From assembly GCA_023250585.1 (NCBI GenBank), contig JAHFAK010000078.1, positions 1-11,445 on the forward strand: a stretch of DNA of 11,445 nucleotides, read 5' to 3'. Position numbers and translations under genes: made by a program. The notes beneath the pieces are model-generated. The model saw only the letters and a program-made list of their open reading frames with translations, was not told the DNA's origin and searched no databases. Origin of the DNA: Deltaproteobacteria bacterium. Lineage in GTDB: Bacteria > Bdellovibrionota_F > JAHFAK01. This document shows, piece by piece, positions 1 to 11,238 of the stretch (positions are counted from its first letter, which is position 1; each line of letters begins with the position of its first letter).

Positions 1-93
1 AAGCGGCCTCACGAAGCGTTAAGTCAAATGTCACCTAATGACTTTGCGCATAAATGGGGCTATACAATTGTCTCTTATGTACCCCTGTTTTAG
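1..93 (+). CDS. Transposase C-terminal end (partial, rve/DDE type)
   Basis: The frame is open from the first base and ends at TAG 91-93, giving 30 residues. It begins KRPHEALSQMSPNDFAHK, which matches the closing motif of rve-type (integrase-core, DDE) transposases of the IS3 and IS481 families, usually written RPHEALG-x2-TP-x2-F/Y. The catalytic DDE residues lie upstream, outside the window. The gene belongs to the insertion sequence whose right end follows immediately. The window is too short to choose between IS3 and IS481. Confidence 0.75.
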   Translation, partial: KRPHEALSQMSPNDFAHKWGYTIVSYVPLF

Positions 94-118
94 TGTTCGA
101 AAAATCGGGTACTTGACA
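1..118 (+). mobile_element. Right end of an insertion sequence (partial)
   Basis: The transposase tail stops 25 bp before a likely IS terminus. Read inward from position 118 on the minus strand, the end starts TGTCAAGTACCCGATTTTTC, with the 5'-TG terminal dinucleotide expected for IS3/IS481 elements. Homology to a sigma-54 activator begins a few bases later. The boundary at 118 is inferred because the left end and target duplication are not in the window. The terminus contains TTGACA (113-118), a -35-like hexamer pointing outward, but the nearest TATATT (141-146) is 22 bp away, so I do not claim a hybrid promoter. Confidence 0.6.
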
Positions 119-122
119 CTCC

Positions 123-1043
123 ATGCTTTCTCATCTCAACTATATTAAAGATAATGAGGCGATAAATGTTCTCATTACGGGAGAATCGGGTGTGGGTAAA
201 GAGTTGATTGCTCGATACATTCATGGGCTGAGTAAAAAAGGCCGACCATTTATTGTGGTTAATTGTGCTGCAATCCCGAATACTCTTATTGAGTCAGTCT
301 TATTTGGCCACAAGAAAGGATCATTTACCGGAGCTCATGAGGATCGCAGTGGTAAATTTGAACTTGCTCATGGTGGGGACGTATTTTTGGATGAAGTCAG
401 TACCCTCAGTGAAGAAATGCAAACACGTTTTTTACGAGTGCTGCAAGAAGGAGAGATAGAACGTATTGGATCACATACTACACGAAAGGTACAATTTCGA
501 GTTATCGCAGCGACAAATGAAGATCTCGACGATCTTGTTACGGCAAAAAAATTTCGTCTTGATCTCTATCATCGGTTACGAGGATTTTCCATGGTAATTC
601 CTCCACTACGGGAACGCATAAAAGATATCGATCTTTTGATTGATCATTATATTAAAAACACTGACATAAAACTTACTGAAGAAGTACGCAAAGTATTTCG
701 AGGATACTCATGGCCAGGAAATGTGAGGGAGCTTAAGAATTTCATGAAGACAATTATAGCACTCAAAAAGAAAGGAAAGGTATTGCTGTCTGATCTTCCC
801 GTGCAGTTTACCTCACATAAAGAAGCGGCTCTTTCCTTTGAAAAATTCTATGATGAGCTTTTTGAAAAGGCTAAAGAGCAAGGCTTAAAGGTAGTCCTCG
901 ACGATATAGAGAAAGCTATTCTTGAACAAGCATTACGTACAACCAAGAATCAATTAGATTGTGCTCAATTAATAAAAACATCCCCACCAACAGTCTCAAG
1001 ACGAATTAAAGAATTTGGATTACGTAAAATATTGCACAACTGA
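123..1043 (+). CDS. Sigma-54 activator (bEBP), N-terminally truncated by IS
   Basis: This is a bacterial enhancer-binding protein that would remodel the sigma-54 RNA polymerase closed complex by ATP hydrolysis. Visible motifs are Walker A GESGVGKE (20-27), the sigma-54-contacting loop GSFTGA (66-71; the usual GAFTGA with A to S), Walker B VFLDEV (87-92), FRLDLYHRL (144-152), PPLRER (160-165), and the sensor II motif WPGNVREL (197-204). A Fis-like helix-turn-helix lies near 275-300 and ends RRIKEFGL. Full-length NtrC-class proteins carry a receiver, GAF or PAS domain of over 100 residues first. Here the frame hits a stop at 114-116, inside the IS end, and the ATG aligns with the Met about 20 residues before Walker A. 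The regulatory domain and the first few AAA+ residues are therefore missing. Ribosome-binding sequence at ATG 123 is weak, so expression is uncertain. It lies just upstream of a sigma-54 promoter and is the probable cognate activator. Confidence 0.85.
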
Positions 1044-1162: not shown

Positions 1163-1178
1163 TGGCATATGTTTTGCT
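1163..1178 (+). promoter_or_regulatory. Sigma-54 (-24/-12) promoter of the operon
   Basis: TGGCAT (1163-1168), a 5-bp spacer and TTGCT (1174-1178) match the sigma-54 consensus TGGCAC-N5-TTGCW with one deviation. The invariant GG (1164-1165) and GC (1176-1177) are exactly 10 bp apart. It lies directly upstream of the first operon gene and downstream of a sigma-54 activator gene, which strongly supports function. The predicted transcription start is near 1189, only about 6 nt before ATG 1195. The first gene would then have a very short leader, or translation begins at an internal Met codon (1228). Confidence 0.75.
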
Positions 1179-1194
1179 TATATAACGAGGTAGT

Positions 1195-2430
1195 ATGAAA
1201 TTTTTGTCTTTTGATCGTTCAGTACTCATGCTTCTGATTGCACGGGCCTTGAGTTCCTGTGGGTATTTTGCATTGATTGATTTGCTGGCACTTCTCTTTC
1301 TTGAAAGCCCATTTCACTTCTCTGCTGTACAAATAGGAACACTCATAGGACTCTTTGCTCTTATTGATAGAAGTGCTGGACTGTTTTGTGCTTCATTTAT
1401 TTCGGTAAGAACGACAGAGAGATATCATGTACTCGGATTATGCATCTCTGCTTCTTCTTTGTTCTTTTTGTGTATTTCCCATAATTTCTATTTCGTTCTT
1501 CCTATGATGATAACGGTGGGCATAGGAAATTCTCTTCAAGCCCTAACGACAAAAATTTGGATTACTTCACTGACTCATGATAATAATAGAGCAATGGCAT
1601 TTGGGTGGTTTTTCAGAATTGTCAATGCAGCGGCAGCCCTTGTTTCCATTGTTGTTTTTGCCATTCCGTATGCCGAACGAGTTCTCTTGGTTATCGCTGG
1701 AATCGCCGGATGTTATCTTCTCAGTGCCATATTCGTCTTATTCTTTTGTAGCCAAGCTCCCGCAGCTGACGAAAAAATATCACTGAAAATTAAATATAAT
1801 GAATTGTGGAGTATGCTTCAAAACGCATTCCCGTACTGCTTAGTTTTTTTCTTCGCAGTATTTTTCGTTATGCAATTACATATTATTCCATTTTATTTTA
1901 AACAAGAAAGTTCCTTGCCTTCTTTTTTAGGATGGGCACTCGCACTTGATCCTCTTTTAATTGTTCTTTTTCAAGCACAGGCAACTAAAATTTTTCTCTC
2001 GCTAGAAAGAAAAGGATCTTCATTAGGCCTTATTGTTGGCTTTGCTTTTTTCTTCCTTGCCTTTACTATTTTTTCTGCTGTGCCATCAGCATATAAGTTA
2101 TGGCTCTTTATTCCTCTCTTAGCCTGTGGTGAAATGCTTATTACTCCTCATATTGATTATCTTTTAAGCCTAAGGGTACCTCAAAAAACTTTATCCTATG
2201 CATTTGCATTAACTGGCTTAATGTTCTCAGGCGCTCGCTTTGTAGCTGAGGGAGTAGGAATTTTAGCACTAGATTCTCTTGCAAAAAAGAACATGAGCCC
2301 GAACTTGTGGTGGTGGGGTAATGTGGGAATTTTGGGAATAGTTATGGCTTCAATGTATTGGGTTATGAGAAGACAAAAAATAAGAATGTATAAACAAGCC
2401 TTAGCTGAGGCAGGTGTTAGTAATGAGTAA
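1195..2430 (+). CDS. MFS transporter, first gene of the sigma-54 operon
   Basis: This is a 411-residue polytopic inner-membrane protein with about 12 hydrophobic segments and a central hydrophilic break near residues 185-205, which fits the 6+6 layout and length of major facilitator superfamily permeases. The opening resembles drug/metabolite exporters of the MFS_1 type. The loop 2-3 signature is degenerate (around LIDRSAGLF, 54-62), so the substrate cannot be inferred. A weak ribosome-binding sequence (ACGAGG, 1185-1190) precedes ATG 1195. The predicted sigma-54 start falls in that sequence, so the later Met at 1228 is an alternative start. The gene ends 20 bp before the radical SAM gene, which suggests joint transcription. 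A role in exporting the product of the downstream genes is inference; uptake is equally possible. Confidence 0.8.
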   Translation: MKFLSFDRSVLMLLIARALSSCGYFALIDLLALLFLESPFHFSAVQIGTLIGLFALIDRSAGLFCASFISVRTTERYHVLGLCISASSLFFLCISHNFYFVLPMMITVGIGNSLQALTTKIWITSLTHDNNRAMAFGWFFRIVNAAAALVSIVVFAIPYAERVLLVIAGIAGCYLLSAIFVLFFCSQAPAADEKISLKIKYNELWSMLQNAFPYCLVFFFAVFFVMQLHIIPFYFKQESSLPSFLGWALALDPLLIVLFQAQATKIFLSLERKGSSLGLIVGFAFFFLAFTIFSAVPSAYKLWLFIPLLACGEMLITPHIDYLLSLRVPQKTLSYAFALTGLMFSGARFVAEGVGILALDSLAKKNMSPNLWWWGNVGILGIVMASMYWVMRRQKIRMYKQALAEAGVSNE

Positions 2431-2450
2431 GATTATTTTAACAAAACAAT

Positions 2451-3533
2451 ATGAATATTGTTAATTCTACTCTTCAATGGGTATATACTAAAATAGTACC
2501 GGATATTAATAGAGATGCAACTATCTTAGGTATCCAATTAGATATTACGAATGCTTGCAATCTTACGTGCGATCATTGCTATCATGTCCATCATAAAAAC
2601 CATGGGGCACTGACATTTGACCAGTGGGTTAATGTCTTAGACCAGTATGAAAGTCTTCTAAAAAAATTACATATGTTACCACAAATAACATTATGTGGAG
2701 GAGAACCTTTACTGTGTCTTTTTCTTTTTTCATTAGTAGAAAATATTCGTAAACGGTTTAGTAATTGTACTATTAATTTGCTTAGTAATGGAACTGTAAT
2801 TACTCCAAAAATTGCAGAGCAACTCAAAAAATATGCGATTCATGTTCAAATAAGTTTAGATGGCCCTGACTCTTTAAGGCATGATTCTATTCGCGGTAAA
2901 GGAAGTTTTGATAAAGCTCTCGAGGGTTGTCTGATTCTCAAGACACATTATGTTTCTTTTCATCACCAGGCAGTTTTGAGTAAACGTACTGCTCCATGGA
3001 TTTCTGATTTCTTCAAACTTCCTTCTATTACAGGAGCTCGCGAAATGGATTTTACTCGACTTATTGTAGAAGGTCATGCAAAAAAATTAGGTATTCTCGG
3101 CGAGGATTATCCTCTCGAAGGATTAGAGTTAAAGCGAGCATTACAGAATATTCTCTATTATTCAAAAACGACAAAAATTCCCACAAAGACATCAGGCCCC
3201 TTATGGTATCTTATTGATTCTACACTTGGCTCTCCCAGTAATTTTGGTTTTGGTATGGTAATTGGATATCGTGGAGAATTTAAGGTTTCAAGCAGAATAT
3301 CAATGAGTCTTGGCAATGTTTTAGAAGAAGGATTAGAAAAATTATTTCTTAAACATCATGTAATGAAACGCTTACGCCGTGGAAAAATAGAAGGCTGTGG
3401 ACCTTGTGTGTATTTTAGGCAATGTAGAGGAAACCGTAATGCAAGCTACGCTGCCTATGGCCATTTATTTGGGCCAGATCCTGGATGTTGGGTTTTAAAC
3501 AAGAATGATAATCAATTAATGGAGATCCAATGA
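2451..3533 (+). CDS. Radical SAM enzyme with reduced SPASM-like C-terminus
   Basis: The [4Fe-4S]/SAM-binding motif is CNLTCDHCY, with C36, C40 and C43, followed by GGEP (83-86), which contacts the SAM methionine. The segment ISLDGPD (134-140) is typical of the partial TIM barrel of SPASM-type members. The C-terminus has C316-x2-C319-x5-C325 and C346, a SPASM/twitch-like auxiliary cluster site. The CX3C partner after C325 is N329, and the earlier SPASM cysteine next to LGNV (287-290) is absent, so probably only one auxiliary cluster binds. SPASM enzymes modify ribosomal peptides or activate other proteins. The nearby 46-residue peptide gene makes peptide modification possible, but that peptide has no Cys. 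No clear Shine-Dalgarno precedes ATG 2451, and an in-frame TAA at 2439-2441 rules out an upstream extension. Its stop overlaps the next start (ATGA, 3530-3533). Confidence 0.85.
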   Translation: MNIVNSTLQWVYTKIVPDINRDATILGIQLDITNACNLTCDHCYHVHHKNHGALTFDQWVNVLDQYESLLKKLHMLPQITLCGGEPLLCLFLFSLVENIRKRFSNCTINLLSNGTVITPKIAEQLKKYAIHVQISLDGPDSLRHDSIRGKGSFDKALEGCLILKTHYVSFHHQAVLSKRTAPWISDFFKLPSITGAREMDFTRLIVEGHAKKLGILGEDYPLEGLELKRALQNILYYSKTTKIPTKTSGPLWYLIDSTLGSPSNFGFGMVIGYRGEFKVSSRISMSLGNVLEEGLEKLFLKHHVMKRLRRGKIEGCGPCVYFRQCRGNRNASYAAYGHLFGPDPGCWVLNKNDNQLMEIQ

Positions 3534-5083
3534 AAACAAGAAATATTGTATTAATAAGCAGTATTGTATTTGCTTGTATTTCGTTTTTGATAGTAAAGGA
3601 GCATTTTATGAATCTGAAAAAAAAGAAGTCTCAATCCGTTACATTAGCTATCCCTGCAGCTTGGGGATCATTAAATCCTCCAGAATTAACCACGTATTCA
3701 GCATCGGAAATTGTATGGAATGTTTTCGAACCATTAGTAGCTTACGATCTACATGGAAATTTAGTACCTAAAGTAGCACTATCATGGAAAGTTTCTGATG
3801 ACTTACGGGTATATACCTTTATCTTAGATACTAAGCGAAAATTTTCAGATGGGACACATTTAACTGCAAGTATCGTTAAACAAGCATTTGAACACTCGTT
3901 AAAAGTCGTACCTGAGAGTTACAATCAAACTACAGTGGATCTTATGTATCGACTTGAAGGTTTTGAAGAATTTTCAAAAATTAAAACTCTCTCTGGTATT
4001 GTTGTTCAAGGAGAAGACACTGTTATTATGAAGTTTAAAACTCCTTTACGTCAAACCTTGCAATTTCTAACAGGAATAAGGTTTGGAATTTATATTATAG
4101 ATCATAACGGAAAATATCTTGGTACAGGAAGTTACTCGATTGAAAAGGCAACAGACAATGAAGTTATCCTTATGGTAAATCCATTCGCTGAAGAAAAATC
4201 ATCATTTTCACAAGTACGAATTATTGGATTAGAAACTTATGAATTGAATAGTGCTCTTAATCAACAGAAAGCGGATATTTTTTGGACTGTCGATCCTGAA
4301 TTTTTAGACAATCTTAAAGAAACGGTAGGATATATAACGTATTCTGGATCCATTGCCGGACATTCAGTAATAGCTATCAATGGTACTGAAGGCAAAATTT
4401 TTTCTAACAAAAAATTGCGTCAGGCACTACAGTATCTGATTATTAAAGAATATATGCCCCAACTGACTCGGTATTTTGATTCTTCTAGGTTCATTTTAGA
4501 TCCTCAATACTTATCAAGTTTACAGATAGGACGACTATCCCAAGATAAAGTTGATACCTTGATTAATCAAGGGAAGGAATGGGTTACAGATCTGATTAGA
4601 GCTTCTCAATCTCAACCAATTCATTTTCCTTTAAAAGGAACTAAAGACAAAGTACTTGTCGAAATGTTGAAAAAGAAAGGAGTTCGGATAGAAACATCTG
4701 ACGCATTTCTTACTACCAAAGAATTACTAAATTTAGTTTATAAAACACATAATTATGATTTGGTATCTTGGAGAACAGGATTCGGTTCTTCTGATCCTGA
4801 TGGTTTATACCATACTCTAGGTAAGTATGGTGCTATTAGCACACCGCCTATGGGACGTTATAAAGTTTGGCAAGTTTTAGAAGAAGGAAGAACTCTTGTA
4901 GACCTTGAGCAGATGAATCAAGTTTACATTCAATTATCTCAAGCTATTTTAGAAGAAGTTCCTACTATACATTTGGGCTATTGTAGACCTTTTGTCTTTT
5001 ATAATACTCAGAAGGTCAAAATTACAAATCAATCTCTCAATAGTTTAACATTTCATTTGTCGATGTTTGAACCAATATTATAA
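3530..5083 (+). CDS. Oligopeptide-type solute-binding protein 1 (SBP_bac_5)
   Basis: The 517-residue protein has the start of an OppA/DppA-type domain: a VTLAIPAAWGSLNPP strand, then EPLVAYDLHGNLVPKVALSW and the family signature KFSDGTHLTA. The late motif SSDPDGLYHTLGKYG is also typical. These proteins bind peptides or nickel-type ligands outside the cytoplasmic membrane and usually hand them to an ABC permease, but none is encoded here. Residues 5-23 form one hydrophobic segment followed by basic residues (LKKKK), which reads as an uncleaved membrane anchor. The C16 context VFAC is a poor lipobox. A second start at M27 (3608) with its own Shine-Dalgarno would give a soluble 491-residue form. 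The gene overlaps the radical SAM gene by 4 bp and is followed 9 bp later by its paralogue in the same frame. A sensory role with the downstream kinase is inference. Confidence 0.85.
   Translation: MKTRNIVLISSIVFACISFLIVKEHFMNLKKKKSQSVTLAIPAAWGSLNPPELTTYSASEIVWNVFEPLVAYDLHGNLVPKVALSWKVSDDLRVYTFILDTKRKFSDGTHLTASIVKQAFEHSLKVVPESYNQTTVDLMYRLEGFEEFSKIKTLSGIVVQGEDTVIMKFKTPLRQTLQFLTGIRFGIYIIDHNGKYLGTGSYSIEKATDNEVILMVNPFAEEKSSFSQVRIIGLETYELNSALNQQKADIFWTVDPEFLDNLKETVGYITYSGSIAGHSVIAINGTEGKIFSNKKLRQALQYLIIKEYMPQLTRYFDSSRFILDPQYLSSLQIGRLSQDKVDTLINQGKEWVTDLIRASQSQPIHFPLKGTKDKVLVEMLKKKGVRIETSDAFLTTKELLNLVYKTHNYDLVSWRTGFGSSDPDGLYHTLGKYGAISTPPMGRYKVWQVLEEGRTLVDLEQMNQVYIQLSQAILEEVPTIHLGYCRPFVFYNTQKVKITNQSLNSLTFHLSMFEPIL
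3595..3610 (+). promoter_or_regulatory. Internal ribosome-binding site and start in SBP 1
   Basis: AAAGGAG (3595-3601) sits 6 nt before ATG 3608, which is codon 27 of the 517-codon frame. This is a stronger site than the GGAG before ATG 3530. Initiation here would skip the membrane segment and yield a protein starting MNLKKKKSQ, closely matching the signal-less start of the paralogue downstream. Use of this start is inferred from sequence only. Confidence 0.5.
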
Positions 5084-5092
5084 GGAAAGTCT

Positions 5093-6556
5093 ATGGATAC
5101 CAAAAATGAATTTCTTACACTTGCTGTTCCCTCCGCATGGGGTCCTTTAACCCCACCCGAGCAGTGCACCTATGCAGCCTCAGAAATTTTAGGAAATGTC
5201 TTCGAAACATTAGTTGCCTATGATCTATATGGAAATTTAATACCTCAATTAGCTCAATCTTGGAAAGTATCGCCAGATTTGTGTGTATATACATTTACTC
5301 TTAATATAAAACGAAAATTTTCCGATGGGACACCTCTTACAGCAAAAATTATAAAAAAAGCATTTGAGCATGCCTTAACAGTTTCACCTACAAGCCATAA
5401 TCAAAGCGCCCTCGATCTTTTTTATCGACTCGAAGGCTTTGAAGAATTTCAGACAACCAAGTCACTGCGAGGGATTGAGATCCCAACAAAAGATACTTTT
5501 GTAATGAAGTTTAAGACTCCACTCCGACAAGCGTTAACTTTTTTAACGGGAATCAGATATGGAATTTACATAATTAATACAAAAGGGACTTACCTTGGGA
5601 CAGGGAGCTATGTGTTCGATAAAGTATCTGATCAGGAGGTTCTATTATCTGCAAATACCCATGCTCAAGAGCCACCCGCATTTCCTAAAGCTCGCATTAT
5701 TGGATTAGAAACGGCTGAGTTCGGCCCTGCTATAAAAGAACATAAAGCCGATGTCTTTTGGACTGTTGATCCAGAAAAGTTTTTGGATAAAAAGGAAGAA
5801 AATTTACAGCATACTCAAACTTCCGGATCAGTTGCAGCGCATGCTATTATTGCAGTAAATGGCATGAATGGAAGAATCTTTTCCGATCAAAAATTACGTC
5901 AAGCATTACAATATCTTATTGTTCGAGAAAGTTCATCAATCCACAAAGACTATTTTGATCTTTCACGTGTTACCTTAGATTCTCAATATTTGCTACCTTT
6001 ACAGCCAGGTAGATTATCACAGAACGAGGTAAATAAAATTATAGAGGTTGGGAAAGAGTGGGTTCCCCTACTTATTAAAGCTTCACAGGAAAAACCCGTT
6101 TATTTTCCTTTAAGAAATGAAAAAGATAAAATAATGACAGAAATGTTACAGAAAGAAGGGATAAGCATCAAAACATCTCATATGATTCTCTCAACTAAAG
6201 AAGCACTTCACTTAATTTATAAAACGCATGATTATGATTTAATATCATGGCGCATTGGATTCGGATCGATTGATCCTGATAGTATATATCATGCTTTAGG
6301 TCAATATGGTGCTATTAGTACTCCGCCTATAGGACGTCCTCGTGTTTGGATGTATCTCGAAGAAGGGAGATCGACAACTAACATAGAGAAATTAAATGAA
6401 ATATATACTCAACTATCGTATGCAATACTCGAAGAAATCCCAGCAGTTCATGTGGGATATTGTAGACCATTTATATTTTTCAACTCGGATAATATTAAAA
6501 TGAATATTCAAAGATTAAATAATATAAGATTTCATTTAGGCGTACTTAATCATTAA
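5093..6556 (+). CDS. Oligopeptide-type solute-binding protein 2, no signal sequence
   Basis: This 487-residue paralogue of the preceding gene aligns with it almost end to end, with shared blocks such as KRKFSDGT, YRLEGFEEF, MKFKTPLRQ, DIFWTVDPE/DVFWTVDPE and YGAISTPP; by eye more than half the residues are identical. It is a tandem duplication within the SBP_bac_5 (OppA-like) family. Translation starts MDTKNEFLTLAVPSAWG, directly at the mature domain, with no signal peptide or membrane anchor. The start is fixed by an AAGGAAAG ribosome-binding site and by the in-frame stop of the previous gene at 5081-5083. Unless exported another way, this binding protein would be cytoplasmic, which is unusual for the family. 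No ABC permease or ATPase gene is present in the window. Confidence 0.85.
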   Translation: MDTKNEFLTLAVPSAWGPLTPPEQCTYAASEILGNVFETLVAYDLYGNLIPQLAQSWKVSPDLCVYTFTLNIKRKFSDGTPLTAKIIKKAFEHALTVSPTSHNQSALDLFYRLEGFEEFQTTKSLRGIEIPTKDTFVMKFKTPLRQALTFLTGIRYGIYIINTKGTYLGTGSYVFDKVSDQEVLLSANTHAQEPPAFPKARIIGLETAEFGPAIKEHKADVFWTVDPEKFLDKKEENLQHTQTSGSVAAHAIIAVNGMNGRIFSDQKLRQALQYLIVRESSSIHKDYFDLSRVTLDSQYLLPLQPGRLSQNEVNKIIEVGKEWVPLLIKASQEKPVYFPLRNEKDKIMTEMLQKEGISIKTSHMILSTKEALHLIYKTHDYDLISWRIGFGSIDPDSIYHALGQYGAISTPPIGRPRVWMYLEEGRSTTNIEKLNEIYTQLSYAILEEIPAVHVGYCRPFIFFNSDNIKMNIQRLNNIRFHLGVLNH

Positions 6557-6565
6557 TTTATTAGG

Positions 6566-6574
6566 AAAGGAGGT
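6566..6574 (+). promoter_or_regulatory. Very strong Shine-Dalgarno of the 46-codon gene
   Basis: AAAGGAGGT is essentially a perfect anti-16S complement, placed 4 nt before ATG 6579. It is the strongest ribosome-binding site in the plus-strand operon, which suggests that the small protein is made in larger amounts than its neighbours. Confidence 0.75.
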
Positions 6575-6578
6575 AAAG

Positions 6579-6719
6579 ATGAAAAAACGAATGAAAATGC
6601 TGTTAATCTTAGTTCTCACTCTCATTCCTATCGGCTCCGTAGCCTTGAAAGCACAGATTATTGCAGCAGGCATTAATGAAAATGGAAGGCCTGTATCTTT
6701 TGATGAAGAAAGTGGTTAA
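6579..6719 (+). CDS. 46-residue secreted-peptide-like protein, candidate signal peptide precursor
   Basis: I recognise no family. The protein has a basic start MKKRMK, a hydrophobic core at about residues 7-23 (including LLILVLTLIPIG) and a polar tail ending NGRPVSFDEESG. That is the layout of a Sec signal peptide plus a short mature peptide. Possible signal peptidase sites are after A22 (S-V-A) or A25 (L-K-A), which would release a 24- or 21-residue, Cys-free, acidic peptide. An outstanding Shine-Dalgarno precedes it. Its stop lies 12 bp before the kinase start and overlaps the kinase ribosome-binding site, suggesting translational coupling. Position between two peptide-binding-protein genes and a membrane kinase suggests a pheromone or kinase ligand (inference). 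Alternatives are a single-pass small membrane protein acting on the kinase, or a substrate of the radical SAM enzyme. Confidence 0.7.
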   Translation: MKKRMKMLLILVLTLIPIGSVALKAQIIAAGINENGRPVSFDEESG

Positions 6720-6731
6720 AGGTACAAGTGT

Positions 6732-8765
6732 ATGCTTACATTTAAACAATGGTTACAGACTAAACTTACCCCGCCTCTCATTGGGGTGGGGCTTATTTTA
6801 TTACTTGCTCAAATATTTTTTATTTTTCTCCTTTTTCGCGTAAACAAGCAGAAGCAAATAGATATAATAGAACGTTTTGTCTCAATTAGTAGAGAAGCGA
6901 TGAGCATTCATCAGAGCAACCTTCTTGACCAAATGGCTGCTATTGCTTTAGATGAAACAAATGCAAAAGTAATACTTTTGTGTACTGAAAAAGAAGCTGT
7001 TGTATGGTCTTATCCAATTACCTTATCAAATTGTAAAATACCAAAACAAAAATGGACACGGATTTCTGAGAAATCTATTTTTAGTAATCAGCTCTATCCT
7101 AAAGTACTCATTTTATTTCCTCTTTTACCAGACAAAAGATTGCTTATAACGATTAGCTTGATAGTTCTTTGTATTATCTTAAATGGGTTCTTTCTCTTAT
7201 GGAGAATAAAATATATCATTACTACAGATCTCTATTTGCCAAGTCAAAAAATGCATGAAGTGAATGTAAAATTTTCCATTCAAGAATTTAGGATTTTTTA
7301 TGAAGAATTACATAAACTTCGTTTACAAGAAAAACTACAAGCAGCTGATGCAGCAATAGGGCAAATCACCGCGCAAGTAGCCCACGACATCAAATCCCCT
7401 CTTGCAGCGCTCTCAATGCTTTTCAAAGATATGTATGATAAAATTCCTGAAGCAGAAAGAATCGCCATACGAAGCTCGGTAAAACGAATTCAGGATATTG
7501 TGAATAATTTATCGCACATGAAAGAACGTACAAAAGAAGAGTCTATTGTACAAACAGTAAACAGTACGAACCGAGTAGAATTGCTTTCAAGTCTTACCGA
7601 AAGTGTTGTTTCAGAAAAGCGAACTCAATATCGCGATCGACAAGATGTGCTGATTGAAGAACATTTTGATGAATCATCGTATGGAGCATTTGCGGCTATT
7701 GATACTGTTGAATTCAAACGAGTCATATCAAATCTTATTAATAATGCTGTTGAAGCGTTAGATACAAAGGGCACCGTAACTATTTCTCTCGCAGCAACTG
7801 CTACTGAGAATATTATAACAATTACTGATACAGGTACTGGTATTCCTCCGGAACGTCTTACAAAACTTGCTACGAGAGGTACTACCTTTGGCAAAAAAGA
7901 TGGTTCAGGTCTTGGATTGGCACATGCACGGGAGACTCTAGAAAAATGGCAGGGAAACATGAGTATTTCATCAACTGTTGGAGTCGGCACCAAGGTAGCT
8001 CTTACGTTCAAGCGAGCTCAATCTCCCGCATGGTTTTTACCTCGTATCGTTATTAATCCACGAATGAAAGTTTTACTATTAGATGATGATCAATCAATCC
8101 ATGATATTTGGAAAGCTCGACTCCGTGATTATGACCTCGCCGATGGAGATATTGAATTGCTTCACTTTACCACTGCTCGAAGCTTCTCAGCATGGTATGA
8201 TAAGCAGCGGTTTCCAAAGTGCCTACTATTGAGTGACTATGAATTGATTGGTGAGCCAGAGACTGGACTTGATGTCATTGAAAAATACTATATCGGTCGA
8301 GACTCAATCTTAGTTACAAGTCATTGTGAAGAAGAAGCCATCCAAAAGCGCTGTGAAAAACTGGGAGTAAGATTATTGCCCAAAGGATTGGCATATCTTG
8401 TACCAATTGAAGTTCATGTAAGGGAGGCATATGATGCAATCTACATAGGAAATAATAACATGCAGCAGATGCATTGGAAGCTCTCAGCCCAAGAATATAA
8501 TAAAGAAGTACGTTATTATTATAATGTAAAACATTTCATTCATGAAGCCAAGACACTTGATCGGAATATTCCTCTCTATATCGAAGAAGAGTTTCTAGAA
8601 GGAGACGTTCTTCACGATTTAAATAAAGCGGTGACACAGTATGGATTCAGTAACATCTATATGATTACCAAAAATCAAACAAAGCTTCCAACTCTCTCTT
8701 GGATTACACAGATGACCACGACCACTCCTCCGTGGAATAAACCAAAATGTGACAATTTTCCCTAA
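6732..8765 (+). CDS. Hybrid histidine kinase with receiver and degenerate second receiver
   Basis: This 677-residue inner-membrane sensor kinase has TM segments at about 15-36 and 136-157 enclosing a roughly 100-residue sensor with no obvious family. A linker then leads to the phosphoacceptor box QVAHDIKSPLAAL (H218), N-box NLINNAVEAL (334-343), G1 DTGTGIP (366-372) and G2 GSGLGL (391-396). A receiver follows at about 446-560, with acidic D451-D453, phosphoacceptor D502, T529/S530 and K551. A second receiver-like domain (568-668) has NNN (574-576) in place of the acidic pocket and E618 in place of the Asp, and ends in PPW. A ribosome-binding AAAGG overlaps the stop of the upstream peptide gene. 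Phosphotransfer to the sigma-54 activator is plausible, but that activator has lost any receiver. Input from the peptide or binding proteins is inference. Confidence 0.88.
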   Translation: MLTFKQWLQTKLTPPLIGVGLILLLAQIFFIFLLFRVNKQKQIDIIERFVSISREAMSIHQSNLLDQMAAIALDETNAKVILLCTEKEAVVWSYPITLSNCKIPKQKWTRISEKSIFSNQLYPKVLILFPLLPDKRLLITISLIVLCIILNGFFLLWRIKYIITTDLYLPSQKMHEVNVKFSIQEFRIFYEELHKLRLQEKLQAADAAIGQITAQVAHDIKSPLAALSMLFKDMYDKIPEAERIAIRSSVKRIQDIVNNLSHMKERTKEESIVQTVNSTNRVELLSSLTESVVSEKRTQYRDRQDVLIEEHFDESSYGAFAAIDTVEFKRVISNLINNAVEALDTKGTVTISLAATATENIITITDTGTGIPPERLTKLATRGTTFGKKDGSGLGLAHARETLEKWQGNMSISSTVGVGTKVALTFKRAQSPAWFLPRIVINPRMKVLLLDDDQSIHDIWKARLRDYDLADGDIELLHFTTARSFSAWYDKQRFPKCLLLSDYELIGEPETGLDVIEKYYIGRDSILVTSHCEEEAIQKRCEKLGVRLLPKGLAYLVPIEVHVREAYDAIYIGNNNMQQMHWKLSAQEYNKEVRYYYNVKHFIHEAKTLDRNIPLYIEEEFLEGDVLHDLNKAVTQYGFSNIYMITKNQTKLPTLSWITQMTTTTPPWNKPKCDNFP

Positions 8766-8779
8766 ATCAGGAATACATC

Positions 8780-8870
8780 GTAACAGCTCAGTAAATGGGA
8801 AAAATGAAGATGGATCCCGCGATCAAGTCGCGGGATCCATCTTCATTTTTCCCATTTACTGAGCTGTTAC
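8780..8870. repeat. Perfect 43-bp inverted repeat, bidirectional terminator-like hairpin
   Basis: Arms 8780-8822 and 8828-8870 are perfect reverse complements around the 5-nt loop TCAAG. The inner part (TGGATCCCGCGA and its complement) is GC-rich and resembles the short palindromic repeats scattered in many host-associated proteobacteria; the outer part is ordinary sequence. It sits between convergent genes, 14 bp after the kinase stop, so it would end transcription from both sides. It is much longer than a normal intrinsic terminator and has no downstream T-run, so a palindromic repeat element is the more likely origin. The following 126 bp to the next gene hold nothing that I recognise. Confidence 0.9.
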
Positions 8871-8996: not shown

Positions 8997-10232
8997 TCAT
9001 TGTAATTTAAGAGAGTAATTTTTTAAAATTTTTATTATGAGGGATAAACAAAAGATTATTAAAGCAGTAAATAAAAATGAAAGATAAAAATGATACATTT
9101 CCATATATGAAATTACCGAAATATAAAATCCCAACATTAAAGAGGTTATAATTAAATAAATACTAACTATTTTTGCTTGATAAGATGAAGGAGTTTCTTT
9201 TTGTAATTGACTATAATGATAAGAAAGAGAATCTGTATTAAATATACCTGTAATGAATAGAATGAAAAGATGTATATAAATATTGTTTCCAAACGGAAGG
9301 CAAGCGATAAGGATACCTTGGATTATAGGGAGAGAATTCTCTCTTTGTTTTAGCAAGAACGGAAAAAACACATATATCTTTTCCATACTATAGTGCCCAA
9401 TAATCATTCCAAAAACAAATGCAGATTGTAATAAAGAAAGAACAATTGGTTTTCCATGATAAAATTGGACACTTAAAGGCACTAGCATAATTTGAATAAA
9501 GCAGAAGATGATAGGATCAAGACACGGTTTCAAAACGGCTACTATAAGACGAGAGTCATTTTTTATTAATCGAATTGTTTCTTTCCAATCACGTATAAGC
9601 TCAGAAATGGAAAAGAGACTTCCTCTGATTATAGTTCCTCCTTTGAAATAATTAAATATGCTATGGATTAAAAGAAAAGAAATAAAGTATGTTATCCCAT
9701 CAAGAAAAATAACATCGTGAGTATTTAAAAAAACTAATAGTAATCCACTCATCATTACACCAATCAAATATCCTCCCTGTTTAAGACCAAGAAAAAGAGC
9801 ATTATACTTTTTGAGCACTTCCGAAGGATTATAATAAATGGCGAAACAAAAAGCAGATGCAATATAAAATGGTTTAAAAAAATTTACAGCGAATGTTGTA
9901 AGAGAAACACATAATAAAAAATTTTTATGGTATAAACAAACAGCGGCTAATAAAAATAATATGCCTCTGAAGAGATCTGAATATTTACAAATTTTTATAG
10001 GTGAAATCTTATCAGCGATGTATCCTGCATAGGTTTGTAACAAAATCTTTGCTACCTGTTCACTCATAAGAATCAAACCAAATCCCAAGATAGATCCTGT
10101 TTTATCATAGATGAGCTTACTTAACGTTAATGTATAAAATCCATTTCCTATATTTGTTATAAAAATTGCGAGAAGAAATTTTTGTGATTCAATTGATAAC
10201 TTTTGGTTCAAAATAAATCTCTCAAAATTCAC
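8997..10232 (-). CDS. MFS exporter paired with ATP-grasp protein
   Basis: This 411-residue membrane protein has about 10-12 hydrophobic segments. The N-terminal half resembles MFS_3-type exporters: FITNIGNGFYTLTLSKLIYD, then LILMSEQVAKILLQTYAGYIADKISPIKICKYSDLFRG, whose GYIADKISPIK part is the loop 2-3 motif A (positions about 69-80). It starts with GTG at 10232, overlapping the end of the ATP-grasp gene by 11 bp (ATGTGA context), so the two are translationally coupled. ATP-grasp plus MFS pairs occur in small-peptide pathways such as bacilysin (BacD/BacE), which suggests export of an amino-acid-ligase product. The substrate is unknown. Its sequence is markedly AT-rich compared with the plus-strand kinase and activator genes. 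It ends with TGA at 8999-8997, facing the long hairpin. Confidence 0.82.
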   Translation of the reverse strand: MNFERFILNQKLSIESQKFLLAIFITNIGNGFYTLTLSKLIYDKTGSILGFGLILMSEQVAKILLQTYAGYIADKISPIKICKYSDLFRGILFLLAAVCLYHKNFLLCVSLTTFAVNFFKPFYIASAFCFAIYYNPSEVLKKYNALFLGLKQGGYLIGVMMSGLLLVFLNTHDVIFLDGITYFISFLLIHSIFNYFKGGTIIRGSLFSISELIRDWKETIRLIKNDSRLIVAVLKPCLDPIIFCFIQIMLVPLSVQFYHGKPIVLSLLQSAFVFGMIIGHYSMEKIYVFFPFLLKQRENSLPIIQGILIACLPFGNNIYIHLFILFITGIFNTDSLSYHYSQLQKETPSSYQAKIVSIYLIITSLMLGFYISVISYMEMYHFYLSFLFTALIIFCLSLIIKILKNYSLKLQ

Positions 10233-10812
10233 ATGGTTGATACATAGTTTTTAAATACTCAAAATCATTTCTCAAATGTTGGTAATTAGAATTATAAATA
10301 ATAATCTCATTTATACGTTCACGAACAGTTTGAGATTTCTGAATACATTCATTTTTTTGTACATGCCAGATAATTTCTGTTTGAGATTGAACTTTTGGAG
10401 AATTTAAATGAATAATTTGTGCATTCTCAGTTTTTGGAAACCATAACCACGCTGCATAGGGCCCTTGTTGGGATATTATCTGTAGATCTAAATTCATCTG
10501 AAGTTTAAAAAAAGCTTCTTGATAATTAATTCCACTATTAATTTCATAAATATACGGCACGCTTGCTCCAGGACTTCGTGCTGCAATTTCTAAGAAAACC
10601 AATTCTCCTGTCTTATTCTTAAAAAATTCTAAATGTGTAGTGCCATTAATAAGAGGTGAGAGGGATTTCAAAACATCTCTATTAAAGCTACTTAACTCTC
10701 GATATTCTTGATAATAGAGCGAAATAGAAACAGGATTCTTAGTTTGATTAACGGAAATGAAATTTTCGACCATATCCTTTTTAATTTTAGTTGATAATTC
10801 ATAAAATGACAT
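10222..10812 (-). CDS. ATP-grasp ligase, C-terminal half only
   Basis: The 196 residues contain the metal- and ATP-binding end of the ATP-grasp fold: NGTTHLEFF (56-64, E62) and GELVFLEIAARSPG (69-82, E75 and R79), followed by the GINYQEAFF helix. Complete carboxylate-amine ligases of this type are near 400 residues. The pre-ATP-grasp domain and the ATP-binding lysine and glycine-rich loop are missing. An in-frame TAA 15 nt upstream of the ATG excludes an extension, and no N-terminal half is found in the 430 bp upstream. A strong AAGGAGGG site at 6-nt spacing shows that the ATG is well placed for translation. It may be a decayed gene, a half-protein working with a separate N-terminal partner, or a domain retained for another role. 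It overlaps the MFS gene downstream by 11 bp. Confidence 0.75.
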   Translation of the reverse strand: MSFYELSTKIKKDMVENFISVNQTKNPVSISLYYQEYRELSSFNRDVLKSLSPLINGTTHLEFFKNKTGELVFLEIAARSPGASVPYIYEINSGINYQEAFFKLQMNLDLQIISQQGPYAAWLWFPKTENAQIIHLNSPKVQSQTEIIWHVQKNECIQKSQTVRERINEIIIYNSNYQHLRNDFEYLKTMYQPCEF

Positions 10813-10841: not shown

Positions 10842-10926
10842 TCTATTAGTTTATAAGCCTAATCAATTTTAAACTTTTGAATTGCATAACAGAGAGACTG
10901 TTGCGAAATTCAAAAGTTCATTCTGC

Positions 10927-10954
10927 CTGGATCCCCGCCTACGCGGGGATGACA
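10927..10954 (+). repeat. GC-rich palindromic repeat, copy 1 (dRS3-like)
   Basis: This 28-bp unit runs CTGG...GACA and contains ATCCCCGC-CTAC-GCGGGGAT, 8-bp perfect arms around a 4-nt loop (10931-10950). It is the inverted partner of the copy at 10982-11009 and of the ATTCCC-N8-GGGAAT repeat class known as dRS3 in Neisseria. Confidence 0.8.
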
Positions 10955-10981
10955 AAAACGTAAGCACATACTTTTCTCTGG

Positions 10982-11009
10982 TGTCATTCCCGCGCAGGCG
11001 GGAATCCAG
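10982..11009 (-). repeat. GC-rich palindromic repeat, copy 2 (dRS3-like), inverted
   Basis: Read on the minus strand this is the same 28-bp unit as copy 1. Its palindrome is ATTCCCGC-GCAG-GCGGGAAT (10986-11005). Relative to copy 1, the third arm base pair is T:A instead of C:G, a compensated change that keeps the 8-bp stem intact. Confidence 0.8.
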
Positions 11010-11238
11010 TCTTATAACAACAGATTACAAGAAATAATTATCTGCCAAAACTACGCTGCGTCTATCATTCTATAACCCACATTAGTCATGGACTTCACTA
11101 TTTCGCAACAGTCTCAACAGACTTATAAAGCAAGAGGCATGCCAAAATATTTTCTTTTTATTTTTAGGTAGTTATGAAATTTTGACTAAAGCAAATGTAT
11201 CGTTTCTCTTACATTTTGTACAAATAGAACTGAAAAAA

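Follow-up and report, generated by a model that had tools for sequence, protein, structure and literature searches.

Gene content and promoter of the locus

The window, meaning the whole stretch of 11,445 nucleotides under analysis, is an entire contig (C153) of a 2.24-Mb draft genome of a Deltaproteobacteria bacterium with approximately 35% G+C. Its plus strand carries a sigma-54 promoter, followed by closely spaced genes for a major facilitator superfamily (MFS) transporter, a radical SAM enzyme, two solute-binding proteins (SBPs), a 46-residue protein and a hybrid histidine kinase. The locus is one copy of a conserved cassette that, on balance, probably works as an autocrine modified-peptide circuit. 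The following features were identified.

1-118, plus strand: right end of an IS3-type insertion element, with transposase C-terminus KRPHEALSQMSPNDFAHKWGYTIVSYVPLF up to the stop codon by translation
123-1043, plus strand: sigma-54 AAA+ activator with Fis-type helix-turn-helix (Sigma54_activat, 3.4e-60; HTH_8), truncated at the 5' end and without receiver domain
1163-1178, plus strand: sigma-54 (-24/-12) promoter TGGCATATGTTTTGCT, 0 mismatches to TGGCAYRNNNNTTGCW; same upstream position in sister cassettes
1195-2430, plus strand: MFS transporter (MFS_1, 1.9e-12), accessory, possible exporter
2451-3533, plus strand: radical SAM/SPASM-like enzyme (Radical_SAM, 2.1e-19), with subfamily motif NAS[YF]..G....DPGCW and subfamily profile match
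3530-5083, plus strand: SBP1, cluster C solute-binding protein (SBP_bac_5, 1.4e-28), 4-nt overlap with the radical SAM gene
5093-6556, plus strand: SBP2, tandem duplicate (60% identical) of SBP1 (SBP_bac_5), without signal peptide or anchor
6566-6574, plus strand: strong Shine-Dalgarno sequence AAAGGAGGT of the small gene
6579-6719, plus strand: 46-residue small protein MKKRMKMLLILVLTLIPIGSVALKAQIIAAGINENGRPVSFDEESG, supported by profile match and shuffle tests, a paralog on contig C75 and a family alignment
6732-8765, plus strand: hybrid histidine kinase with two transmembrane helices flanking a periplasmic domain of approximately 100 residues, HisKA, HATPase and receivers
8780-8870, strand not applicable: 43-bp perfect inverted repeat with 5-nt loop, directly 3' of the kinase gene

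Gaps between consecutive genes of the operon were 20, -4, 9, 22 and 12 nt, and Pfam searches on the window proteins returned MFS_1, Radical_SAM, SBP_bac_5 (twice), HATPase_c with a sub-threshold HisKA, and Sigma54_activat. Coordinates, Pfam matches and promoter scan all agreed with the gene order, overlaps and promoter given in an earlier sequence-only reading of this DNA. The promoter was the sole plus-strand site with at most one mismatch in the window, where approximately 0.1 was expected. The host genome encodes a single rpoN as well as Omp85/BamA, which indicated that the host uses sigma-54 and is a diderm; the combination of a -24/-12 promoter with genomic rpoN is that of a sigma-54-dependent operon.

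SBP1 carries an N-terminal hydrophobic membrane anchor at residue 6, as do the SBPs of sister cassettes, and is a probable ligand receptor judging from these sequence features. SBP2 starts straight at the mature domain; its AlphaFold model (pLDDT, the predicted local distance difference test score, 87.6) showed a fold of the OppA/AapF/NikA/CntA type. As it has no export signal, SBP2 may reflect a cytosolic role, readthrough or decay. Its gene shares the reading frame of SBP1 and starts 9 bases past the SBP1 stop. A tandem arrangement was also seen at L187:7433-13340, where a single radical SAM gene and a single small open reading frame (ORF) are followed by two SBP-kinase pairs, paralleling the SBP duplication in the window. 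In the kinase, the first receiver keeps the DDD/D/K residues and the second is degenerate, and the structure model contained confident kinase and receiver blocks. An arrangement known from SBP-coupled kinases, in which a binding protein is encoded beside a membrane kinase without a permease, was present in the window and its sisters, with co-transcription suggested by gene spacing. Anchors indicated periplasmic exposure of SBP1 and the sister SBPs, with SBP2 of the window as the exception.

The sequence-only reading had placed a sigma-54 activator next to the operon. Such a gene does adjoin it, but its receiver domain was most likely lost to the IS3-type insertion. The activator profile match starts upstream of an in-frame TGA, and the ORF at 123-1043 itself begins within the AAA+ domain; full-length paralogs are 65% and 63% identical to it. 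The transposase tail (KRPHEALSQMSPND...) ends at approximately position 118 and is presumably of IS3 type, an assignment that rests on the motif RPHEAL. The 118 bp that precede the activator recur identically at the start of another contig of the same genome (G000:C87). A receiver-domain search did not identify the missing 5' half. The NtrC-type arrangement of a regulator with receiver and sigma-54 AAA+ domains beside a kinase is therefore incomplete in the window, where the receiver is missing; it is present in sister cassettes.

Downstream of the kinase gene, the 43-bp inverted repeat at the operon end is either a terminator or a miniature inverted-repeat transposable element or other mobile repeat. 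The minus strand bears another perfect sigma-54 site (11129-11144), which faces a gene for an ATP-grasp-like protein truncated at its N-terminus and an MFS gene (8997-10812, minus strand); an element with 28-bp terminal inverted repeats (10894-11115) separates the site from these genes.

Recurrence of the cassette and its small protein gene

The radical SAM subfamily was found at 30 loci, which include the window and a second copy in its own genome. They were distributed over Elusimicrobiota, Bdellovibrionota, a third phylum of Deltaproteobacteria metagenome-assembled genomes (MAGs) and the window's own class; phylum labels were taken from the MAG titles of the centre genomes, and two of the loci (L218 and L219) were near-identical. 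With the radical SAM profile, the cassette was detected in 5 of 294 genomes of the Elusimicrobiota phylum (a sixth match, G334, was without cassette), and matches were obtained in 14 of 290 genomes from the phylum of an Oligoflexia genome and in 3 of 46 from the third phylum. Across a 386-genome sample, scores at subfamily level were confined to the window genome and the same-class genome G001, which contains two SBP-radical SAM-kinase loci. Four lower-scoring relatives (L250-L253, approximately 180-208 bits), set aside as an outgroup, had no SBP, kinase or credible small ORF alongside, and L194 likewise showed none. One locus that ends within the radical SAM gene (L232) was excluded from gene-content counts.

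With few exceptions, the genes of Bdellovibrionota cassettes ran in the order sigma-54 response regulator, radical SAM, small ORF, SBP_bac_5 and kinase. Elusimicrobiota members have radical SAM, small ORF, SBP and kinase in common, to which L099 adds an activator; the window enzyme is 46-47% identical to those of L099 and L119. Within G001 the order was small ORF, SBP, radical SAM and kinase. Apparent absence of the small ORF from G001, where the profile gave no match, was rejected after direct reading located it upstream of the SBP gene with the ribosome-binding sequence AAGGAGG. Overall, a small ORF was present at 30 of 30 loci (26 by profile, four by position and motif) and SBP_bac_5 at 26 of the 28 with enough sequence, while a sigma-54 activator lay directly upstream at 15. 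At 13 loci the first cassette gene was immediately preceded by a sigma-54 site with no more than one mismatch, against approximately 0.1 expected per locus. On contig C75, the window genome has a second cassette, in which a perfect sigma-54 promoter occurs together with genes for a radical SAM enzyme, a 46-residue protein, an MFS-like transporter, a hybrid kinase and a complete sigma-54 response regulator. The sequence-only reading had proposed to look for the same gene order in other genomes; the cassette does occur well outside the window, and its small ORF, radical SAM enzyme, binding protein and kinase form a unit.

Nutrients are the usual ligands of SBP_bac_5 proteins, and the locus might accordingly be an ordinary nutrient sensor, in which SBP and kinase respond to peptides or nickel from the surroundings and have the small ORF and the radical SAM gene merely as incidental neighbours. 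This explanation is very improbable. The two supposed bystanders occur together at all 30 loci, mostly with an SBP and across phyla, the SBPs have membrane anchors and no permease was seen in the cassettes read; on account of the joint conservation of small ORF and enzyme, nutrient sensing was rejected as the main explanation.

Whether the 46-residue ORF is a gene was examined with a profile built from 18 small ORFs of other genomes, from which the window genome was excluded. This profile recovered the window ORF with E=0.0017 among 3558 ORFs, a score reached by none of 10,000 shuffles of that ORF, and at five other loci it also picked up held-out small ORFs in the gap between the radical SAM and SBP genes. 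The C75 protein MKKRIILGILSVVRMIPVRAVSLRAQIVEAHIVSRETHMLSELSVW aligned with that of the window without gaps (14 identities, score 53), and none of 200,000 region-preserving shuffles reached this score. Recovery by a profile from other genomes and the presence of a paralog beside a paralogous radical SAM gene demonstrated that the ORF is more than a chance occurrence. For L218 and L222, the closest informative pair, omega was 0.07, and pS exceeded pN in every pair tested; the small ORFs look to be under purifying selection.

All small ORFs encode a signal-peptide-like N-terminus. Among 24 aligned small proteins, this segment was conserved, with a single invariant proline ending the hydrophobic stretch, and the tails varied widely. 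No Pfam or NCBIfam family covered the small proteins, the only match being to Coq4 and below threshold. The conserved segment may act as a leader or be the product itself. A small ORF accompanied the radical SAM subfamily at all 30 loci, with coding supported by dN/dS, in the manner of a short encoded precursor beside its modifying enzyme in clusters for ribosomally synthesised and post-translationally modified peptides (RiPPs). The 46-residue protein carries the family motif [hydrophobic]-P-[ILVF] and is a candidate peptide precursor that the radical SAM enzyme probably modifies.

The sequence-only reading had counted the MFS transporter as the candidate exporter of the circuit. The transporter proved optional: MFS_1 was found at L188 and an MFS-like gene in the C75 cassette, and most other sister cassettes have none, for which reason the MFS was rejected as an essential exporter. 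It possibly exports in copies with a poor Sec signal (window, C75 and L188), a pattern of three loci only that G001 and L231 do not fit. The MFS gene in the window, together with an SBP fold as near NikA, NikZ and CntA (staphylopine) as OppA, would also suit a modified peptide that serves as a metallophore or antimicrobial, its metal complex or presence being sensed by SBP and kinase without a dedicated signal; staphylopine export uses an MFS transporter. Such a function appears improbable, as no ABC permease or TonB receptor was noticed in the cassettes read, the small proteins contain no conserved Cys or His, and no immunity gene was seen.

A scan with the kinase core yielded 79 loci, mostly in Elusimicrobia and Bdellovibrionota-type MAGs, 33 of which encode SBP_bac_5 at most three genes away. 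Other upstream partners were Peripla_BP_6 and further folds, with genes for radical SAM, YcaO, nitroreductase, ATP-grasp and methyltransferase proteins. The kinase family was rejected as a marker of peptide circuits, since the same core serves many other cassettes (YcaO, ATP-grasp, pyridoxal phosphate (PLP) enzymes, other binding-protein folds). The occurrence of this kinase class is accordingly not restricted to loci with the radical SAM peptide. The sequence-only reading had named homologous loci with kinase and activator but no peptide, binding-protein or radical SAM genes as grounds for refutation of its circuit; at the level of the radical SAM subfamily this refutation fails, since the small ORF was never missing, and the kinase family as a whole does extend to other cassettes. 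Small signal-peptide ORFs with a ribosome site were approximately seven times denser in kinase-family cassettes (13 in 15.9 kb) than in gaps taken from these loci as controls (9 in 78.4 kb), a supporting observation only, as the heuristic was chosen after the first examples had been viewed.

Some members of the kinase family have gene sets of their own. YcaO genes lie between SBP_bac_5 and kinase at L102, L127, L129 and L157, with L104 as a probable fifth, and most of these loci have a small signal-peptide ORF upstream, which makes them the YcaO equivalent of the radical SAM cassette. Three further loci look, from their gene content, like synthesis-export-sensing modules: L079 (G000:C160:4000-10605), with AstE/AspA, methyltransferase, MFS, ATP-grasp and periplasmic proteins; L075 (G000:C5), with PLP lyase, methyltransferase and ABC_sub_bind-type proteins; and L073 (G034:C14:60000-75000), with aminotransferase/AONS-like, GNAT-like, MFS and SBP proteins. 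In enzyme-SBP-kinase cassettes of Elusimicrobia, 2dG-II (2'-deoxyguanosine) riboswitches (RF03165) lie directly upstream of small signal-peptide ORFs (L104:97-167, L129:6553-6623, L145:7502-7572, L125:6491-6561, L120:3552-3621 and L149:5813-5888), and the L119 radical SAM ORF begins with an apparent 2dG-II element, judged from translation. This placement may reveal the natural target of riboswitch control.

Proposed circuit

In the proposed circuit, the sigma-54 promoter would drive expression of the radical SAM enzyme, the small Sec-type protein, the anchored cluster C binding protein and the histidine kinase, with a sigma-54 activator as the usual partner response regulator. The enzyme would modify the small protein, the probable site lying within or beside the conserved N-terminal segment that contains the Pro, and the product would be exported by Sec, perhaps by the MFS transporter in some copies. 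A binding protein tethered to the inner membrane would then capture the product and present it to the kinase, which would phosphorylate the activator; firing of the cassette's own promoter would close a positive feedback loop. That the ligand is a modified peptide and the loop autocrine is what we infer from the fixed pairing of enzyme and small ORF, the lack of permeases in the cassettes read, the SBP anchors, the promoter, and the joint location, at C5 and C102, of the closest same-genome paralogs of the window kinase and activator. N-terminal anchors and the lack of an ABC permease in the cassettes read also fit sensing rather than uptake. At related kinase loci, SBP_bac_5 occurs with enzymes of types characteristic of modified peptides (YcaO, radical SAM, nitroreductase and ATP-grasp).

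A different assignment of roles would make the small protein a membrane accessory subunit that touches either the kinase or the anchor of the SBP through its hydrophobic N-terminus; the radical SAM enzyme would then produce a small-molecule ligand sensed by SBP and kinase. Consistent with this alternative, conservation within the small ORF lies in the hydrophobic segment with its Pro rather than in the tail, the enzyme scores equally well against haem/cofactor enzymes and peptide maturases, and cassettes of the kinase family elsewhere carry small-molecule enzymes (PLP lyase with methyltransferase; ATP-grasp with MFS). It is nevertheless unlikely. At C75 and L188, which have no SBP and a different type of kinase, the radical SAM gene is still followed by the small ORF. 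The constant partner of the small ORF is thus the enzyme, as expected of a substrate, and several related cassettes carry the peptide-modifying YcaO family.

Several observations weigh against the autocrine modified-peptide circuit. As the window activator has lost its receiver, the window kinase must use a paralogous activator, or else the loop is broken or unregulated. Outside the N-terminal segment the small proteins have no conserved core residue, and their tails range from approximately 20 to 90 residues; the window protein has a weak signal-peptidase site, and its C75 paralog carries an Arg within the hydrophobic stretch. The C75 and L188 cassettes are without SBP. The sequence-only reading of two peptide-type binding proteins stood as regards SBP_bac_5, found twice, but not as regards export of SBP2 or ligand contacts: the Asp that binds the ligand's free N-terminus in OppA/DppA (OppA Asp419) is not kept, Gly occupying the aligned position in the profile and in both window SBPs. 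Binding may therefore not be OppA-like, and a peptide ligand is suggested rather than dictated by the fold; structure and profile matches indicated that the ligands of cluster C SBPs also include nickel chelates, opines and other signals. Scores of the radical SAM family were divided between peptide maturases and haem/cofactor enzymes, all far under cut-offs; no named peptide-maturase family was reached, with best NCBIfam scores of approximately 95-113 bits against cut-offs of 395-500. Modification chemistry, transcript and peptide are predictions from sequence.

A broader proposal is more tentative. The cassettes may belong to a large undescribed class of autocrine systems in diderms (Elusimicrobiota, Bdellovibrionota and others), each combining a modifying enzyme (radical SAM, YcaO or others), a small Sec-type precursor, a tethered SBP and a hybrid kinase, with a pheromone derived from the Pro-containing signal-peptide segment and not from the tail.

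Comparison with known systems

The cassette shares individual parts with several known systems. Its kinase core is nearest to AtoS and its activator is of the NtrC/NorR type, as in NtrC-type systems such as AtoSC and ZraSR; unlike these, it is embedded in an enzyme/peptide/SBP cassette and its kinase carries receivers of its own. A transporter-less binding protein encoded beside a hybrid kinase is also found in LuxP-LuxQ and other SBP-coupled kinases. LuxP-LuxQ ultimately controls a sigma-54 activator (LuxO in Vibrio). In the cassette, however, the SBP is of cluster C and membrane-anchored, and enzyme and small ORF take the place of LuxS.

Clusters for radical SAM RiPPs (sactipeptide, ranthipeptide, cyclophane and ACGX-type) resemble the cassette in the small precursor-like gene beside a radical SAM/SPASM-type enzyme and in the conserved N-terminal part with variable tail. 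Among the nearest NCBIfam models are TIGR04340 and TIGR04053; none of the models reached its cut-off. In contrast to these clusters, the cassette has no conserved Cys, dedicated ABC exporter or leader peptidase, and instead has a Sec-like N-terminus and a fixed association with SBP, kinase and sigma-54. Enterococcal conjugation pheromones are hydrophobic peptides cut from signal-peptide-type precursors and imported via Opp to a cytoplasmic regulator. Their PrgZ/TraC receptors are SBP_bac_5 proteins, and PrgZ (4faj) was among the profile matches; the cassette differs in its lack of a permease, its membrane kinase with sigma-54 output and its diderm host.

In the Gram-positive NisK, AgrC and ComP systems, a membrane kinase senses a post-translationally modified peptide and in response switches on the operon that encodes it, a logic that the proposed circuit would share. 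No AgrB-type protease/exporter with cyclic peptide precursor was found among the window genes by Pfam searches; the cassette, without AgrB or lanthionine enzymes, uses an SBP co-receptor and sigma-54 and occurs in several diderm phyla. Peptide signalling through dedicated receptors is well known in Gram-positive bacteria and hardly in bacteria with an outer membrane. No published description of a radical SAM-small ORF-SBP-kinase cassette was found in the literature, subscription papers being outside coverage, and with promoter and cassette confirmed, the locus can still be regarded as an undescribed sigma-54-controlled operon. It offers a defined recurring gene set, candidate precursor sequences and a receptor pair that can be tested, in phyla about whose social behaviour hardly anything is known and which include some predators. 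For the radical SAM enzyme it predicts a new chemistry, acting on a substrate that resembles a signal peptide. If the SBP indeed recognises the modified peptide, the cassette would constitute an SBP-gated peptide pheromone system under sigma-54. The principle, two-component signalling by a modified peptide, is known; architecture, hosts, receptor type and sigma-54 control are not.

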